A DNA stretch of 35,099 nucleotides from a virus. The notes beneath the pieces are model-generated. The model was not told the origin of the DNA and made no database searches. It saw nothing but the letters and a program-made list of their open reading frames with translations. The translations under genes and the position numbers were made by a program. Shown piece after piece: positions 529 to 9,724 of the stretch. Location of the stretch: the IMG/VR virus record IMGVR_UViG_3300011115_000070, positions 1-35,099 of that record. The stretch is one strand, 5' to 3'. Position 1 is the first letter of the stretch. Every line of letters begins with the position of its first letter.

Positions 529-2052
529 CTATGCCCCCATCCAAGAAGTGTTAACGCCGCTGCCCTGAGAGTTCACGCGGCGGGTTGGTTCAGTGTACTG
601 CCGATGCGCCACGGGAAAAGCAAAGGTCACGGCAATCGCGTCTGCCGCGTCAGGTGAAGCCAATCCTCTTGCTCTCATCTCTTTTTTCCCTTCAAGGAAA
701 ATAGTCCCCGACGAATTCGGTTTCTTCATAGGCCCAGTTAGGTCAGCTTTAAGCTGCCTGTCTGTGGGAATACTAGCAGATTTTAGCCACGACCTCATAT
801 CGTTCCACATTTCGGCCCGCTTATTGCCAAACGCAATAGAGTGTTTTGCCTTGGAACCAAAGTTCACGCCGCGCACCTTATACCGCTGCTCGGTGAGCCT
901 ATCCAGTATCCCGTAGCCCAATCCACCCTCGTCAATCACCGTCATCACAGGCTTATATTCCTCCATCGCCTCAATAACGCGACCAACAATCGTCATGGTG
1001 TCCTCGCCCTGATACCGCTTAATCGCAACAATATCCCGCCCCTGGCGTACCGCAATCACAGTGGCATCAGCACCGCCCCTAGCCGGATCAACCCCCATCA
1101 CGATAGGCGCGGATGAATCCTTGTAACGCGGGCGCTTGGCGGCATCATCCACCAGTGTCCCCGATATAAACTGATCTTCGCCAGCCGATGGAAACTCGCC
1201 GTACACCTCAACCTTGGCCTGAGCAGAGTCCTCGCCATACTCTTGAATAATCTGCTCATACACCGCCTTGTCGGTGTCCTCCACCGTCCTAGCATCAACG
1301 CAGCGCGTGTTCCAGAAATCCCGTTTGGCGTTAAAGCACTCAAAGAAATAGCCCTCGTTACGCCGAGGATTGGAGAACGCAAACCAGTACCTGTCTGGCG
1401 TGTTCTCCGTAAAGAATCCCGCGCCCACTTCCCATATCGGATTAGGGATACCGCTACTCTCATCAAAAATCAGCATCATGCCGTCCTGATTGTGGACACC
1501 AGCGTAGGAATCAGGATTCTCCGCAGACCACAGCTTACCCTCGCAAGCCCAATAGCGCGTACCCTTCTTCAGATCACGCTCAACCAAATCTGTCAACCAG
1601 TTCGCAGGCACTAGCTTGGTGGCGCTTATCTCCCACCAGTGCGAGTTAATCAGCATGGCCGCCCACTTCGTCAACTCGGCCCAGGTGACCGAACGCAACT
1701 GGTTTTCAGAGTTTGCGCTGACCACTACGCTGCCGCCAATCCGAGTGGTCAGCATCCACAGCACCAGCCAGCTAACCAATGCAGACTTACCAATCCCGCG
1801 CCCAGATGACACTGCCATTCGCACGGTGTCATAGGTAATCTGCCCCTTCTGCTTCTTGATGTGATCCGTGATGTCGCGTAGCACCTCGCGCTGCCACTTG
1901 CGCGGGCCTTGGAACCTTTCCAATGGCGTGTTCTTTACACCCCAAGGGAATGCAAACCTTACAAACGCCTCTAGGTCATTGGCAATCGCCGGTGACCATA
2001 GTTCCGTCATCAGCTTTTGCTCTTCCTCGCCTTTGTATATCGGGAGTTGCAT
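529..2052 (-). CDS. terL: Terminase large subunit (packaging ATPase-nuclease)
   Basis: This is the 507-residue motor that pumps DNA through the portal and cuts it. The N-terminal ATPase domain has Walker A SSGRGIGKS (82-90) and Walker B MMLIFDE (192-198) with the catalytic Glu. The C-terminal RNase-H-like nuclease domain has acidic residues in GVDPARGGAD (about D322), VIDEGG (D374) and SPDAADA (D468/D471). Length is normal for the family. The ATG at 2050-2052 directly follows the TAA of the HNH-AP2 gene, with no gap. In P22-like phages terL normally sits next to terS, so the upstream HNH gene is an insertion. Downstream come small genes and, after closing the map, the portal. Confidence 0.95.
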   Translation of the reverse strand: MQLPIYKGEEEQKLMTELWSPAIANDLEAFVRFAFPWGVKNTPLERFQGPRKWQREVLRDITDHIKKQKGQITYDTVRMAVSSGRGIGKSALVSWLVLWMLTTRIGGSVVVSANSENQLRSVTWAELTKWAAMLINSHWWEISATKLVPANWLTDLVERDLKKGTRYWACEGKLWSAENPDSYAGVHNQDGMMLIFDESSGIPNPIWEVGAGFFTENTPDRYWFAFSNPRRNEGYFFECFNAKRDFWNTRCVDARTVEDTDKAVYEQIIQEYGEDSAQAKVEVYGEFPSAGEDQFISGTLVDDAAKRPRYKDSSAPIVMGVDPARGGADATVIAVRQGRDIVAIKRYQGEDTMTIVGRVIEAMEEYKPVMTVIDEGGLGYGILDRLTEQRYKVRGVNFGSKAKHSIAFGNKRAEMWNDMRSWLKSASIPTDRQLKADLTGPMKKPNSSGTIFLEGKKEMRARGLASPDAADAIAVTFAFPVAHRQYTEPTRRVNSQGSGVNTSWMGA

Positions 2053-2535
2053 TTATTTCACTAAATTTTGTTTAGCCAAATTGTAAGCGTTTGCAGCTTC
2101 TTCAATAGTAGCAAACGTACCCAAATGATGCATTTTGTAATTTACACGAATTCTTGCTTGCCATTTGTTTTCTTGCGTTTTGTACACGCCTTTGTGCCCA
2201 GATTTTGGGTTGCGGTGCAAAGTGTTATGCAGATTTTCAGAATGGGAAACTGACCGCAAATTTGCAATCCTGTCATCTGTTGGATTGCGGTTTATGTGGT
2301 CAATGTCACCCGATGGGAAATCCCCGTACACATACAACCACGCCAATCTGTAAGCCGTGTAACCCTTACCGTCAACCCCAATGTACCGATATCCAAACTT
2401 AGACTTGCATCCAGGCTCATCACCGATTTGCTGCTTGCCCCACTTCGTCAAACGCTTGAACTTGCCCGTCTCTGGGTCGTAATGCAGAAACTCTTTCAAA
2501 CGAACTTGAGTGATGTTTGGCTTCATGGCTAACAT
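2053..2535 (-). CDS. HNH endonuclease with AP2 DNA-binding domain
   Basis: This 160-residue putative homing endonuclease starts at ATG 2535; a second ATG at 2526 is equally possible, and neither has a good Shine-Dalgarno site. Residues about 15-70 hold the usual HNH N-terminal beta segment (YDPETGKF to GYRYIGVDGK). The catalytic part is DIDHINRNPTDDR followed by NLR and HNTLHRNPKSG. The last 45 residues (GVYKTQENKWQARI to FATIEEAANAYNLA) are an AP2-type DNA-binding domain. The gene is wedged between terS and terL, on the same strand, with its stop touching the terL start. It is unrelated in detail to the antisense HNH gene at the other end. Mobile-element identity is secure; its target site is not visible. 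Confidence 0.9.
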   Translation of the reverse strand: MLAMKPNITQVRLKEFLHYDPETGKFKRLTKWGKQQIGDEPGCKSKFGYRYIGVDGKGYTAYRLAWLYVYGDFPSGDIDHINRNPTDDRIANLRSVSHSENLHNTLHRNPKSGHKGVYKTQENKWQARIRVNYKMHHLGTFATIEEAANAYNLAKQNLVK

Positions 2536-2550
2536 TGTGCCACGAATTTA

Positions 2551-2580
2551 AAAAATAAAAATAAAAATAAAAATGAAAAT
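2551..2580. repeat. AT-rich hexamer tandem repeat (AAAAAT)
   Basis: Four perfect AAAAAT units (2551-2574) are followed by one GAAAAT. The tract sits just upstream of the HNH-AP2 gene and next to a very GC-rich block. An AT-rich direct repeat near DnaA boxes is the usual look of a DNA-unwinding element, but it could also simply be slippage sequence. Confidence 0.7.
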
Positions 2581-2592
2581 AAATTGTGCGCG

Positions 2593-2647
2593 GGGCCACC
2601 GTTTCTGTGGCCCTTCGCCGTCGGCCCTACCCCCCGCCTTCGGCGGG
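2593..2647. other. Two GC-rich hairpins in the terS-HNH gap
   Basis: The first hairpin has stem GGGCCAC (2593-2599) and GTGGCCC (2607-2613) with a 7-base loop. The second has CCCGCC (2633-2638), loop TTC, and GGCGGG (2642-2647), inside a longer imperfect inverted repeat (about 2618-2661). Base composition is far more GC-rich than the flanks. In the minus-strand transcript the first hairpin is followed about ten bases later by the U-rich complement of the AAAAAT repeat. It is therefore not a canonical terminator, though it might weaken transcription into the HNH gene. Confidence 0.6.
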
Positions 2648-2712
2648 CGGCGGGCTACGGCCAGCGCAACCAAGGTCACTTAGTTCGTGCACCAAACCAA
2701 CGATGTCAGCCC

Positions 2713-2940
2713 TGTGCATAACTTAGGCATCATTGATTCCCCAATGACACAATGCGTGTACCTTTGTAAGTCATTGATAACATTGACCTTTTGACCATAC
2801 CGATTTACTTAGTTCAACCGCGCTACTTAATACAGTGTCCATTATGTGAATGAAAATAGGGATGTTATGGCCCTTTCTGCTTAATCTTTATACAAACGGC
2901 CATATTCTGTGGATAACTTTTACCGTTGGTCTGTGGGTAA
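2713..2940 (-). promoter_or_regulatory. DnaA-box cluster in a 384-base intergenic region
   Basis: Read on the minus strand, TTATGCACA (2713-2721) and TTATCCACA (2908-2916) both match the TTATNCACA DnaA-box consensus exactly. TTACCCACA (2932-2940) is one base off and lies in the 3' end of terS. Between them is a small hairpin TCATTG (2730-2735)/CAATGA (2742-2747) and further CATTGA words. With the AT-rich hexamer repeat at 2551 this resembles a host-type replication origin. Chance matches to a 9-mer with one free position are possible, so the call is tentative. I see no gene between 2536 and 2919. Confidence 0.4.
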
Positions 2941-3552
2941 CTTTGGCGTGACATCGGTTACGTCCATGCCGATCTGGACGCGGGAGCGTGCAGCTTCCAA
3001 TGCGTCCAGTACGCTGATGCGCTCATCACGCACGCTAACGTCGATCTTGTCGCCGTACACCTTCGGACGCAGCTTGGCGGCCACCCACTTGCGTGCGTCC
3101 ACCTGTAGGCGCTTCTGGTTCACCCAAGCGCTGATCTCCACGCCTTGCAGGTGGCTAGGTATCTCTGAGTCAGCCAGGTCGAGAATCTGCTCTGCCAGCC
3201 GGTCAGCGCGTTCCATCTTCACCTTCTCATAGGCAGCGGCCAGCACTGGGTCAGCCTCCATCAGCCGATAAGCGTGTATGTAGCTGATGCCTGACACCTC
3301 GAGCGCGGCCCCCAATGATGAACCCATGCTAACCCGATCAAATATCTCTTTCCAAATTTCCGGTGTGTAGGTCGGCGGGCGGCCAATCGGTTTGTCGCCG
3401 CGGCGGTAAGCACGCGTAGTTTTGACTAAAGATTGTCCGCTTTTGCCGCCTTCCGCGACAATTGGTGGCATTCCAATCGTTACGCCATCCGCAACCCGTG
3501 GCCCTGGTTTTCTGCGCTTCTGCTTGACTTTGACCGGCTCACCGTTTTGCAC
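2920..3552 (-). CDS. terS: Terminase small subunit (Sf6-like)
   Basis: This is the DNA-recognition subunit of the packaging machine. The core has a helix-turn-helix-like segment (from WKEIFDRVSMGSSLGAALEV to YRLMEADPVLAAAYE), a helical ADRLAEQILDLAD segment and the QKRLQVDARKWVAAKLRPK-YGDK ending that marks Sf6/P22-type small terminases. I start it at GTG 3550-3552, giving 210 residues. AAGGAG lies six bases upstream, and the overlap with the preceding gene is then only 14 bases. A longer reading from GTG 3645 would overlap that gene by 107 bases and has a poor ribosome site. The N-terminus is rich in Lys/Arg (KVKQKRRKPGPR), fitting DNA contact. Confidence 0.85.
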   Translation of the reverse strand: MQNGEPVKVKQKRRKPGPRVADGVTIGMPPIVAEGGKSGQSLVKTTRAYRRGDKPIGRPPTYTPEIWKEIFDRVSMGSSLGAALEVSGISYIHAYRLMEADPVLAAAYEKVKMERADRLAEQILDLADSEIPSHLQGVEISAWVNQKRLQVDARKWVAAKLRPKVYGDKIDVSVRDERISVLDALEAARSRVQIGMDVTDVTPKLPTDQR

Positions 3553-4183
3553 TTCTGGCTCCTTCGGCCGCTGCCGTGTCAAAGAGTTTGGTTCCTCGGT
3601 ATGGTTTGCTGATGTCAATGTCGTTCTCCATGTTTTCAAATCCACTTAATCCTGTAGCCTGCACTGGCACCATTTTGGTTCCAGGCAATGCTGCCTTAAT
3701 TTCCCGCACCTGCTTAAGCGTCGGCGCGTTCATCACCGTTTCCAACTCTTCCAGCGTCCAGATGGAGCGTGGGCCTGGCTCCTTCCTAAACTGCTCGTAC
3801 CAAATCCTATCCTTCTCCTGCCTCACAACCACCATCAGGCTCCCGTCCTGCATCCTATGCTCCATACAATCTATTTTAGGCATCCTCTCTAGCCCTACCC
3901 CTTCAGCCCACCTCGTCAACGCCTTGTAGGCCGCTATAAGCCCCTTGCTGGCCCTCTCCAACCTTTCCTCGTCCCGCGCCTGCACGGCTTCCGCAATCCG
4001 TTCCCGCTGCGCGGCAAACTTGCGCCGGAATTCTGCGTCCACCAATTCAAGCACCCGCCCAATCCCGTAAACCTTTTCATGATCCAGCTTTGCCAGTTCA
4101 ACGTCCACCGCCAACGCCTGATTCCAAACCTTAAACGAATCTGATGGGTAAACATCAGTCTCCAACAATTTCTTTGATGCCAT
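3539..4183 (-). CDS. Hypothetical protein upstream of small terminase (214 aa)
   Basis: I do not recognise this 214-residue protein. The first two thirds are helical and charged, with a likely coiled coil around FRRKFAAQRERIAEAVQARDEE. A mixed segment follows (about 105-150) with DGSLMVVVRQEKDRIWYEQF, then a WTLEELETVMN helix. An AAGGA with seven-base spacing precedes the ATG at 4183. It ends 14 bases inside terS and lies directly downstream of the repeat block at 4198-4423, so it probably starts the packaging/late transcript. Its position suggests a role in packaging or in regulation at the repeats. No domain supports either. Confidence 0.75.
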   Translation of the reverse strand: MASKKLLETDVYPSDSFKVWNQALAVDVELAKLDHEKVYGIGRVLELVDAEFRRKFAAQRERIAEAVQARDEERLERASKGLIAAYKALTRWAEGVGLERMPKIDCMEHRMQDGSLMVVVRQEKDRIWYEQFRKEPGPRSIWTLEELETVMNAPTLKQVREIKAALPGTKMVPVQATGLSGFENMENDIDISKPYRGTKLFDTAAAEGARSAKR

Positions 4184-4197
4184 CCTCTAATCCTTCC

Positions 4198-4423
4198 ATA
4201 GCCGACTTCAAACCATAGCCAACTTCCAAAATCGCGAGATAGCCGACTAGCCGACTTCATATTGCATTAAGCAATATTATGCAAGTCGGCTATCCGACCA
4301 CCTATTTCTGGCCGACTTCACGATAGCCAGCTTGCCATGTTTTTACAAGTCGGCTATGTTTTCCAAACAATAGTACATAGCCAGCTTGCCATGCTTTTAT
4401 AGCCAACTTCACAAGTCGGCTAT
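4198..4423. repeat. Iteron-like cluster: eleven copies of ATAGCCGACTTC in both orientations
   Basis: Forward copies, some with one or two changes (GCCAAC, GCCAGC), begin at 4198, 4215, 4239, 4248, 4309, 4323, 4377 and 4399. Reverse copies (AAGTCGGCTAT) begin at 4283, 4347 and 4413. The forward and reverse copies at 4248-4292 close a compound palindrome: a ten-base outer stem TAGCCGACTT/AAGTCGGCTA around an inner stem ATATTGC/GCAATAT with loop ATTAA. Other pairs form hairpins at 4323-4357 and 4399-4423. A longer unit, ATAGCCAGCTTGCCATG plus a T-run, occurs twice (4323 and 4377). The block fills the gap between the primase-helicase stop and the 214-residue gene and holds no gene. Confidence 0.9.
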
Positions 4424-6492
4424 CAGAAAGGTGCCACAAACGGCTCATCTTTATCCTTATCGGGGTAAATTACCCAGCAGTATTCCGCTACATCTGTCTT
4501 GTGATATCCGACCAATTCCTTGGCGAACATAGACTTTTTACCCTTGTAAAAGTCTGTGTTAATGCTGCTGCTGTCACCCTTCAGCTTCACAAATTCCTCT
4601 TTCCATTCGTTTACGGTCACCGTTTTATGGCGCTGGTCACCCACATTTGTCATATGCCCATTGCGTTCTATCGCCTTATGGATAGCGTTCAGCGCCACCT
4701 GCTGGTTCTCCTGCAGCTTCCTTGGCTTCTCTTGGTGGCTGATTGCTTGGTTCTGCATCTGCTGCTGGATGGCCTCATCGCTGGCTCTAACCGCCAGGCT
4801 GATCTGGGATTCGGCAAGCCCTAGCGTCCCAGATTGAATCTCCACCTTCACCATCTCAAAGCCAATCTTTAGCCCGTCCTGGCCATCCTTCTGCTTGCTA
4901 ATTGTGAGGATCCCACTTCCAGCTATCGGGCTTGCTGGGTTTGGTATTGCATCAATCTTCATCAGTTCAAGCTGGGTGTCCACGGCTCCCAGCAGGCTTG
5001 AATGCCCCCGCAATCCCTTGGTGGCATCCTTTCCACTGTGGTGCAGCACCATCATGGCGCAATTCAGCATCCGCTGAATCCGTCCCGCGTTGTGGATAAA
5101 CGCTCCCATGTCTTCGCTATTGTTCTCGTTGCCACCGCCAAACGCTCTAGCTAGAGTGTCAATCTGAACTAACTCAAACTGGACACCTGTACGCTCAACC
5201 AAGTCCTTAATGGATAGCACCAGCAAGTCAAAGTCTTCCGCGCTCGATCTCAGGTTTATCGCGGCCCTGATGACGTAAATTTCGGCACCAGCAGCAGTGG
5301 CGTTGTGCATCTTGCAGGCTTTGATGCGTGCGCCGATGCCGCCAAAGCCTTCGCCGGCAATGTACAGGACTGCGCCCGCGGCTTGCACCTCCCGCCCCAT
5401 CCACGTCCTGCCCGTTGCCACCGCCTCCGCAATGTCCAGCGCAACAAATGACTTGTAGCTGCCTGGCGGCCCGTATAAGGCGCAGAATGCACGCTTTGGA
5501 AGGACGTTGTCTATCAGCCACTCCACCGGCTCATCCTCAATGTCATCCCAGCTTTCGATGTTGAGCAACTGCCTCGGGACTAGGATAGGTGGCTCTTCCT
5601 CGGGTAACGGGTCAAGCGTAATAGGTTCAATAGTTTCCCGTGGAACAATCCACTCTGGTGTCTGCACCTGGTCTATGCTGGTGATGACGGGTAATGCCTT
5701 GGCGAGTTCTGCCAGCTTGGCCCTGTCCCCGCCATCCGCAACCCACTCGTATGCATCGTCACCTAACTCGGGTAAATTGAAGTCCAGCACCCGTACAGCT
5801 TTAGCTACAGGTAAGAGCGCCTCCACTACCCGCTTGGCGTATTTCCAGCCTGGTTGGTCGCAATCAGGCACCACTATCACTACCGCGCCAGCAAAGTATT
5901 GGGTGATGTCTGCCGGCCAATGGCCAGCACCAGCGTGAGACGTTGTGGCAATGGCGCCTATGCTGACCAGGGCATCCGCTGCCTTCTCGCCTTCCACCAA
6001 GTAGATGGCTCGTCCTGCTTCCCTGGCGTTGATGAGTTCCGGAAGCCGGTAAGGCACTATCCGCGCTCCTGTCATGCTGCCCTTGCGGTTGCCTGCGGCA
6101 TCCACCTTGTGCAGTGAGTACGTCTTGCCCTTCTCGGTGTTTGTCTTAAACCGGCGCTTTACGAACAGCGTCTCGCCTGACTCGTCCTTGTATTCCCACT
6201 CGTTTTCAAGCGTTGGCATTGTCATCAATTCACCTTTAATGAGCGCGAGACTGTACTCCTGGCGCTGGAGTGCTGGCAATAGGTTGCGTTCCCGTACTGC
6301 GTCAAATACTGACCCTTGATCACATCCACCGTGGCAGTGGAATAAGAGTTTGCCATTGTCTTCCTTGATGGAGAGGGACGGGTTCTTGTCACCGTTGCCT
6401 CTGCCGTGGCCTGCTACAGGGCAACTCGCAAGCCAGTTCCCGTTCACTTGCTTGGCGTTGCCAAGGGCTTTGGCTATTGTTTCTGTGTCCAT
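4423..6492 (-). CDS. Primase-helicase fusion (CHC2-like zinc, TOPRIM, RepA-like AAA ATPase)
   Basis: This 689-residue protein would make primers and unwind DNA at the phage fork. The N-terminus has a zinc-type array: C24 and H29 in CPVAGHG, then HCHGGC at 52-57. A TOPRIM domain follows, with LVEGEKAADAL (165-175) and VVPDCDQPG (207-215). The C-terminal half is a RepA/hexameric helicase-like ATPase with Walker A GPPGSYKS (341-348), an LYIAGEG strand, Walker B LVQID (441-445) and a HHSGKD sensor segment (484-489). The phage encodes no DNA polymerase, so host Pol III must extend the primers. The ATG at 6492 lies just below a strong terminator, so expression probably needs readthrough or a promoter of its own. 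Its stop touches the repeat block. Confidence 0.92.
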   Translation of the reverse strand: MDTETIAKALGNAKQVNGNWLASCPVAGHGRGNGDKNPSLSIKEDNGKLLFHCHGGCDQGSVFDAVRERNLLPALQRQEYSLALIKGELMTMPTLENEWEYKDESGETLFVKRRFKTNTEKGKTYSLHKVDAAGNRKGSMTGARIVPYRLPELINAREAGRAIYLVEGEKAADALVSIGAIATTSHAGAGHWPADITQYFAGAVVIVVPDCDQPGWKYAKRVVEALLPVAKAVRVLDFNLPELGDDAYEWVADGGDRAKLAELAKALPVITSIDQVQTPEWIVPRETIEPITLDPLPEEEPPILVPRQLLNIESWDDIEDEPVEWLIDNVLPKRAFCALYGPPGSYKSFVALDIAEAVATGRTWMGREVQAAGAVLYIAGEGFGGIGARIKACKMHNATAAGAEIYVIRAAINLRSSAEDFDLLVLSIKDLVERTGVQFELVQIDTLARAFGGGNENNSEDMGAFIHNAGRIQRMLNCAMMVLHHSGKDATKGLRGHSSLLGAVDTQLELMKIDAIPNPASPIAGSGILTISKQKDGQDGLKIGFEMVKVEIQSGTLGLAESQISLAVRASDEAIQQQMQNQAISHQEKPRKLQENQQVALNAIHKAIERNGHMTNVGDQRHKTVTVNEWKEEFVKLKGDSSSINTDFYKGKKSMFAKELVGYHKTDVAEYCWVIYPDKDKDEPFVAPF

Positions 6493-8427: not shown

Positions 8428-9252
8428 TTAGTCCCCGCAAAAGCAGGCAATACTTTCTTCATTGGGGTCAAACATATCGCGCTGGTCAACGGCGAATGCC
8501 GCCATTTGAGCGTAGCTAGGCCGGTCGGAACGGAACACCGCACCGCTTGGCTTGGATGCCAATGCCAATGCCAATGCCTCCATTTTGGCCCACCATATAG
8601 CACGTTTTGGATTTTCCGCAATTAGAGATAACACTTGTGCGCCGCCTTTTAGAAAGCACAGATCGCAGTTGCCATGCATAGTCACGCCATTCATGTTTGG
8701 CAGGCCCAAGTCAAACGGCTGCGCCTTCCAAAATGCCGAAATGTCTGACTTGGTGATGCCAGCAGTCACCAACGGAATGCGTGATTTGTCAGCAATCTTG
8801 GCGGTTCGGCGCTGCTCGTCTGCTCTCATGCCAACCCAATCCATTGTCTCATTGTGTTCCCATCCCAACGATTTCAAATACTTGTGAATGGTGCGAATTT
8901 TCAGTTCAGCAGTGCAGAACCTAGTCACCGGATTCGGTAGGTAATTGCGCTTGCGAATAAGCGCCTCAAACGGCTCACCGTCGCGGCTGGCGGTATCAAA
9001 TGTCACGCGCTTAAATGCCAAATCAGCGTCTTGAAACTCAACCCAATGAATCTCAACATTCCATTGCTCTGAGCAGTCCTGCACAAAACGCAATGTCGCT
9101 TCATCTTCCTTGCCAGTGTTGGCAAAGCAGACAATAGCTTCTGCTGGCAACCCGCCATTGCTTTGCAGCACCCGCCAAAGCATATAGGCGCTTGTTCGCC
9201 CACCGCTAAACGATATGCACGTTGGCTCTGTAATTTTGAACGGGTCAAGCAT
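8428..9252 (-). CDS. PAPS-reductase/ATP-pyrophosphatase-like PP-loop protein
   Basis: This 274-residue member of the phosphoadenosine phosphosulphate reductase family activates a substrate with ATP. The PP-loop is ISFSGGRTSAY near residue 14. FANTGKE, the CTAELKIRTIHKYL segment and the late Cys pairs CDLCFLKGG and CFCGD are also family-like. I start it at ATG 9252, overlapping the RuvC-like gene by eight bases; a TTG at 9276 is the alternative. True assimilatory reduction is unlikely in a phage. Relatives (DndC, TilS/ThiI-type enzymes) move sulphur or modify nucleic acids, so DNA or tRNA modification is possible. No DndB/D/E or cysteine desulphurase gene is present here, so it would need host partners. 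Confidence 0.8.
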   Translation of the reverse strand: MLDPFKITEPTCISFSGGRTSAYMLWRVLQSNGGLPAEAIVCFANTGKEDEATLRFVQDCSEQWNVEIHWVEFQDADLAFKRVTFDTASRDGEPFEALIRKRNYLPNPVTRFCTAELKIRTIHKYLKSLGWEHNETMDWVGMRADEQRRTAKIADKSRIPLVTAGITKSDISAFWKAQPFDLGLPNMNGVTMHGNCDLCFLKGGAQVLSLIAENPKRAIWWAKMEALALALASKPSGAVFRSDRPSYAQMAAFAVDQRDMFDPNEESIACFCGD

Positions 9253-9724
9253 TTTTTGTGATGTACCAGTAAGCAATCAGCGCAGCATCTGCGCGGCCAT
9301 CGTCCTTCGCACGCTTAAACAGTTCAGCGCGTGTAGGGAACAGTTCCATCGCACGCATACGGCTGGCATCCTTGCCCGCTGCGCGGCCCACAGCCTTAGT
9401 CCAGGTGGCAGGAGTGACGTATGTATGTGGCATCCGAAAAGCAGCCACAACGCCCTCTATGATGCCTGCGCTGCGCCCGAAATTGAACATACTGCTGACG
9501 CCTTGGCCTGGCATCGCGCCCACCTTCTCAATCACAACGTGAGCCTCCGGATAGCAGACCAAAATATCGCGCAATCCAGCCGCGCTGATGTGGCGTTTCT
9601 TTGTCTTGCCTGAGTCCACCTCCAGCGTAGGCATATCAACTACGTCATGCAAGGTGTTGGGAAACTTACTAAACAAGCTGATGGCTCCGCTGATGCCTGG
9701 GTCGATTCCTATGACAAAACTCAC
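9245..9724 (-). CDS. RuvC-like Holliday junction resolvase
   Basis: This 159-residue RNase-H-fold endonuclease would cut four-way junctions made during replication and packaging. Motifs: VIGIDPGISGAI with the first Asp at the N-terminus, VVIEKVGAMPGQG with the second acidic residue, and KDDGRADAALIAYW with the last Asp pair. I start it at GTG 9724, which overlaps the HTH gene stop as GTGA. The longer reading from the 9778 codon would add 18 residues out of frame with any homologue pattern. It lies second in the leftward early operon. Confidence 0.9.
   Translation of the reverse strand: MSFVIGIDPGISGAISLFSKFPNTLHDVVDMPTLEVDSGKTKKRHISAAGLRDILVCYPEAHVVIEKVGAMPGQGVSSMFNFGRSAGIIEGVVAAFRMPHTYVTPATWTKAVGRAAGKDASRMRAMELFPTRAELFKRAKDDGRADAALIAYWYITKNA

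Follow-up and report, generated by a model that had tools for sequence, protein, structure and literature searches.

In SaPI and SCCmec elements, a self-loading initiator helicase (Rep and Cch2, respectively) acts with a short-iteron origin that lies directly downstream of its own gene in these staphylococcal islands (PMC7581432, citing Ubeda et al. 2007); inverted repeats beside the iterons of these origins could form hairpins. For Cch2, recognition of the origin by the helicase C-terminal domain was demonstrated by binding assay (PMC7581432). The α protein of P4 unites a bacterial-type primase, a helicase and a C-terminal winged helix in one polypeptide, with the winged helix binding the origin iterons, and pRN1 depends on a stem-loop that immediately follows its primase-helicase gene (PMC4234260). 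The pRN1 enzyme combines an archaeo-eukaryotic primase with an SF3 helicase, and its origin has no iterons and one stem-loop of about 100 nt (PMC4234260). In RSF1010 (IncQ), the helicase, primase and iteron binder are three proteins (RepA, RepB′ and RepC), and oriV has iterons as well as stem-loops at which the primase starts (summarised in PMC4234260).

The window, i.e. the whole stretch of DNA analysed here, corresponds to a 35,099-base virus record of IMG/VR and carries P22-like portal, head-closure, scaffolding and DNA-ejection genes, nearly all on the minus strand. Among the window genes checked, no polymerase was seen. The helicase core of the primase-helicase (residues 314-490) is of the AAA_25/RepA type (Pfam AAA_25, 5e-37), with RepA (1g8y, E 0.0014) as its nearest solved relative, and residues 6-264 match phage DNA-primase families. 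The match to the CHC2 zinc finger is weak, no Toprim Pfam match was returned for the protein and Toprim-like motifs were discerned by eye only. The following gene (3539-4183) encodes a 214-residue protein with no Pfam or PHROG family match. A phosphoadenosine phosphosulfate reductase-like gene is present in the replication region (8428-9276), an HNH endonuclease gene (2053-2535) is matchless in every locus compared and the terminase genes (529-3645) are swapped as a block among otherwise similar phages.

Between the stop codon of the primase-helicase (4423-4425) and the start of the 214-residue gene (4183), both on the minus strand, positions 4198-4423 contain no genes, as originally predicted. 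Allowing up to two mismatches, ATAGCCGACTTC occurs at 13 sites in the window against 1.44 expected, a number reached by none of 100 shuffles, and 9 of the 13 sites fall in 4198-4423. With up to three mismatches allowed, the number of sites in the block is exactly 11 (8 on the plus and 3 on the minus strand), and all of them lie in the interval from the primase-helicase stop to the following gene; the two GCCAGC copies (4323 and 4377) are matched only at three mismatches, and the copies at 4239 and 4247 share four bases (Table 1). The eleven-copy, two-orientation cluster of the original prediction therefore holds at the looser threshold, with nine copies at the stricter one, and we regard the cluster as confirmed as a real feature. 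The predicted compound palindrome is likewise present with exact arms: the outer arms (4248-4257/4283-4292, 10 bp) are made of iteron sequence, and the inner arms (4259-4265/4271-4277, 7 bp) are non-iteron and enclose the loop ATTAA (TTAAT on the minus strand). The GC content of the block is 45% vs 51% for the window.

Table 1. Positions in the window of the putative origin, its repeats and the proposed initiator
Feature	Position	Strand	Remarks
Putative origin: intergenic iteron block	4184..4422	-	239 bp, between primase-helicase stop codon and start of 214-aa gene
Iteron copy	4198..4209	+	Exact ATAGCCGACTTC
Iteron copy	4215..4226	+	1 mismatch (GCCAAC)
Iteron copy	4239..4250	+	2 mismatches; overlaps copy at 4247
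Iteron copy	4247..4258	+	1 mismatch; outer arm of central palindrome
Central compound palindrome	4248..4292		Iteron arms enclosing non-iteron hairpin
Iteron copy	4282..4293	-	1 mismatch; outer arm of central palindrome
Iteron copy	4308..4319	+	2 mismatches
Degenerate iteron copy	4323..4334	+	3 mismatches (GCCAGC)
Iteron copy	4346..4357	-	1 mismatch
Degenerate iteron copy	4377..4388	+	3 mismatches (GCCAGC)
Iteron copy	4399..4410	+	1 mismatch (GCCAAC)
Iteron copy	4412..4423	-	1 mismatch; extends into helicase stop codon
Primase-helicase, proposed initiator	4423..6492	-	689 aa; CHC2-like zinc-finger/primase N-terminal part, helicase core, C-terminal winged helix (predicted)
Predicted winged-helix domain	4471..4710	-	Helicase residues 595-674; part co-changing with iterons
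Predicted recognition helix H3	4522..4563	-	Residues 644-657; contains K650 (codon 4543-4545)

Like the SaPI and SCCmec elements, the window phage has multiple short repeats directly downstream of a putative initiator-helicase gene, and the helicase has a putative C-terminal DNA-binding domain, here a predicted winged helix for which fold matches are weak; inverted repeats able to fold into hairpins are another shared trait. Unlike their helicases, which have DUF927 or D5/Primase_Cterm cores, that of the window joins an AAA_25/RepA-type core to a DnaG-like N-terminal part, and its putative iterons form a single array of about ten that runs both ways, with a large set of paired variants. The protein is also reminiscent of P4 α in combining a bacterial-type primase, a helicase and a predicted winged helix with iterons at a putative origin, although α has an SF3 helicase rather than one of the AAA_25/RepA type. 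P4 has a second site, crr; in the window, the iterons all lie in one block and a second site was not seen. As in the stem-loop origins of pRN1 and Bordetella phage BIP-1, the block immediately follows the gene of a primase-helicase that ends in a winged helix (predicted in the window phage), and structure is kept among relatives while sequence changes (PMC4234260); unlike that of pRN1, it is dominated by iterons, and its compound palindrome is smaller. A RepA-type helicase, iterons and stem-loops are shared with the RSF1010 oriV (PMC4234260); however, the three functions that RSF1010 divides among separate proteins apparently reside in one protein in the window phage, where the motif follows the helicase's own C-terminal domain in the apparent place of a separate RepC.

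A search of viral contigs for two inverted exact copies of the motif found one near-identical phage only; hence, relatives were sought by protein. Using the helicase as query returned 80 loci (65 at 76-96% identity and 15 at about 50%), a second query reached more of the ~50%-identical distant group and a second viral-contig scan gave mostly the contigs of the first. No helicase relative was found in bacterial genomes, of which one per species was scanned. In the IMG/VR relatives examined, all on contigs extending past the helicase, a repeat block of about 150-260 nt is found at the same place in 61/61 close and 74/74 distant loci, followed by a relative of the 214-residue gene, which neighbours the helicase in close and distant relatives alike. 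The motif itself differs among phage groups, with all copies switched together (AGTCGGCTA, AGTTGACTA, TTGCGTA, TGCATACA, GGACAAATGG, GTCTACATA and others). The window dodecamer is limited to class A (17/61 close loci), while classes B and B2 have AGTTGACTA/AGTTGCCTA, and classes C, D, E, F and G have AGTTGGGTA, TTGCGTAG, CTGCATACA, ATTACATAC and GTATAGTTT, respectively; in the distant group, the motif is GGACAAATGG, GACGAATGG, GATAGATGA, CGATAGATA or GTCTACATA. In all, more than ten motif classes are distributed over three lineages. Taken literally, the expectation that the dodecamer would be found in relatives with this gene order therefore failed: most relatives lack it. What they have is another dodecamer in the same arrangement.

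Within each block the copies agree with one another, and between groups every copy has changed, yet copy positions are largely kept (in classes A, B and C, for example, they are 1, 15, 67 and approximately 131, 168 and 210). Copy number exceeds the shuffled-block maximum in most blocks; in L049, L153, L208 and L220-L222 it equals or falls below that maximum. Some distant loci (L209, L210, L215, L217-L219 and L223) have an additional segment of 60-100 nt in the first 100 nt past the helicase stop, with more iterons and with inverted repeats of its own, which looks like an extension or duplication of the array.

Our analysis revealed that the motif is matched to one part of the helicase and hardly to other genes. 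In 30-residue windows, differentiation between motif classes is 0-0.5 up to residue 570 and rises to 0.65-0.86 in residues 571-689, compared with 0.03-0.15 in the next gene, and the genes on either side of the helicase and block show little of it. Residues 631-660 differ at 49% of sites between motif classes vs 7% within them. For the distant group, the window-by-window correlation is dominated by shared ancestry; we therefore preferred a pair-matched comparison, restricted to pairs with 92% or more identity over residues 1-540 and intended to separate the motif link from ancestry. In the close group, identity of the C-terminal domain is 0.896 when the motif is the same vs 0.581 when it differs, compared with 0.831 vs 0.805 for residues 1-60 of the next gene; among distant-group pairs, the corresponding values are 0.746 vs 0.423 and 0.897 vs 0.907, the locus pairs being non-independent and some contigs possibly near-duplicates. 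Permutation of the labels gave z = 17.4 for the C-terminal domain vs 2.6-6.2 elsewhere; as permutation p-values ignore relatedness, and the neighbour gene and primase part also reach small p, it is the effect size (0.311 vs 0.013-0.050) that we rely on.

Individual pairs illustrate this pattern. L217 and L227 are 98% identical over residues 1-540 and 53% in the C-terminal domain, and their motifs are GGACAAATG and GTCTACATA, respectively; L186 and L156 represent a further sharp natural swap (N-terminal part 96%, C-terminal domain 35%), whereas L204 and L215, which have the same word, are 92% identical over residues 1-540 and 90% in the C-terminal domain. The C-terminal domain adjoins the block, so the linkage is partly physical; the near absence of the link on the other flank of the block argues against its being wholly so. 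That same flank bears on the suggestion that the 214-residue neighbour might bind the repeats, which we rejected: the neighbour's sequence hardly varies with motif class, and this holds even for the 60 residues at its start, only a few bases from the block. With the cultured phages described below included, the iteron motif and the predicted C-terminal winged-helix domain of the helicase change together in three separate lineages, a strong co-variation.

AlphaFold2 applied to the aligned C-terminal parts predicted a winged helix, with pLDDT of about 92-95 over most of residues 595-674. No credible Pfam family was matched by this domain, and the best matches in a fold search were winged-helix proteins, none below E 0.001. 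Many of the top class-informative residues (645, 646, 649, 650, 654 and 657) lie in helix 3, the predicted recognition helix. At residue 650, Lys is present in every class A protein (17/17) and Arg in every class B protein (16/16), and the C-terminal domains of L052 (class A) and L013 (class B), which are 91% identical, differ within helix 3 solely at this residue, with further differences outside it at 606, 628, 635 and others. The linker between the primase and helicase parts (P0001 residues 271-300, window about 5593-5682) is equally variable within and between motif classes, unlike the C-terminal domain.

The arrangement is also found in cultured Roseobacter phages. CRP-831, CRP-811 and CRP-823 share the order single-strand-binding protein, RepA-type helicase, block of 175-186 bp and next gene; the block contains nine copies of TTTTATACA in CRP-831 and eleven of TTTGTAGTA in both CRP-811 and CRP-823, and the iterons of CRP-831 and CRP-811 sit at nearly matching places. 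Between CRP-831 and CRP-811, helicase identity is 97-100% over alignment columns 420-600 vs 70-77% in the C-terminal part, and next-gene identity is about 90%. CRP-811 and CRP-823, which have the same word, are 97-100% identical in the C-terminal part vs 70-85% near the N-terminus. CRP-831 also has a gene similar to the window's phosphoadenosine phosphosulfate reductase-like gene, placed two genes downstream of its helicase. In Idiomarinaceae phage 1N2-2 (L231:3492-3756), a 265-bp block with seven GCGGTACAC-like copies follows the primase-helicase and is likely another putative origin of the iteron kind; GCGGTACA-type words recur in it, and it includes the perfect palindrome ACACACCTAT/ATAGGTGTGT. 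MW202711 and Mae-JY30 encode related helicases and lack such a block; hence, the arrangement is widespread, but not universal.

Since the motif changes with the predicted winged helix and the array lies directly downstream of the helicase gene, we propose that the block is an origin bound by this protein. It is probably the replication origin of the phage, and its approximately ten repeats would be iterons for the C-terminal winged helix of the primase-helicase. The original prediction had named the primase-helicase as a possible origin binder, and the co-change in three lineages, together with a position matching that of the SaPI, SCCmec and pRN1 origins, speaks for this choice.

Several other functions were weighed. 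The array could be a set of operators through which the helicase C-terminal domain controls transcription of the terminase and other downstream genes, or decides inter-phage immunity, with replication starting elsewhere. The pairing of domain and motif indicates a recognition pair, not the purpose of recognition, and the block is co-directional with the downstream genes; however, no promoter-like site is present on its transcribed strand, only one weak terminator-like site lies within it, and ten sites downstream of the binder's own primase-helicase gene resemble the initiator-origin pairs of SaPI, SCCmec and pRN1, making this an unlikely explanation. The nearby terminase gene raises the question of a packaging (pac) site recognised by the small terminase subunit, whose gene is 0.5 kb distant. 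This we rejected as extremely improbable, because classes A and D each combine the same iterons with two unrelated terminase types, the large subunit being either 96-99% or about 31% identical to that of the window, and the terminase has thus been exchanged independently of the motif. Concerted copies in both orientations might also arise if the palindromic repeats were selfish or host-derived and template switching had homogenised them with no binding protein. However, copies keep their place and spacing across groups whose motifs differ, motif copies are nearly absent elsewhere in the genome and the motif is linked to one protein domain, which renders such an origin of the repeats highly improbable.

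A structured RNA, whether a 3′ end signal (the original prediction had mentioned RNA hairpins ending the early transcript), a regulator or a packaging RNA, would make the hairpins the element kept by compensatory change and the repeats a by-product. The transcribed strand does fold very stably (−103 kcal/mol, z −8.0), but the opposite strand also scores (z −6.5), and over 17 block types folded against shuffles, with the class G row excluded as its 450 nt included coding DNA, the transcribed strand is the better one in some and the other strand in more; in class A, the energy gap between strands is mostly base composition. Rfam 15 returned best scores of 14-17 bits, far below the gathering scores. 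As the copies change jointly, any pairing between them would seem to covary; covariation over the iteron helices is therefore no proof of structure, and the non-iteron central hairpin alone was examined. Its stem sequence varies across relatives with compensatory change between groups, and pairing and a TAA-containing tip are usually retained, in a comparison where the automatic hairpin finder missed or misplaced the hairpin in about 20 distant loci. Pairing nevertheless explains neither the common sequence of the copies nor arrays of 4-7 direct and one or two inverted copies; in L217, with seven direct copies and one inverted copy, repetition cannot stem from pairing, and in many blocks surplus direct copies have no partner. 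Nor does an RNA predict the co-change with the winged helix. With both strands scoring, we rejected structured RNA as the main explanation and consider it very unlikely.

Taking the block as an origin bound by the primase-helicase, we infer the following sequence of events. The winged-helix domains would bind the array on double-stranded DNA and helicase rings would form on it. Opening of the AT-richer DNA and of the central palindrome, the latter possibly as a hairpin, would follow, after which the helicase would load itself at the block. Initial primers would come from the primase domain of the same protein, with the conserved hairpin tip as a possible priming site, and a host polymerase would then take over, a step proposed because no polymerase gene was seen. 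GC skew, the check suggested in the original prediction, has no switch at the block in the window or in CRP-831/CRP-811; because it tracks gene direction it is uninformative here and lends the origin reading no support.

Origins with iterons downstream of the initiator gene are a kind already known, and most likely this locus is of that kind, with a RepA-type initiator and with array and reader diversified together many times. Our literature searches, which covered few subscription papers, found no description of this block, and the papers searched describe neither this helicase type nor a two-way array nor so many matched variants. As to why the pairs are so diverse, we tentatively suggest, as a possibility we consider rather doubtful, that origin and initiator form a fast-diversifying recognition pair serving as a self/non-self label, phages that share hosts being driven to new specificities and switching the ten-copy arrays and the winged helix together. 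A new specificity could then bar relatives or satellites from using the phage's initiator, and a single substitution in the recognition helix might sometimes suffice for the switch (K650R between classes A and B, e.g. L052 vs L013).

If the origin reading is right, these phages, cultured Roseobacter phages included, would provide a large natural collection of initiator-origin pairs whose proteins are otherwise almost the same. The choice of iteron by a winged helix would become directly testable, as would the manner in which an initiator and a ten-copy array shift specificity jointly with function kept, and an origin would be placed in phages whose replication start GC skew hardly reveals.
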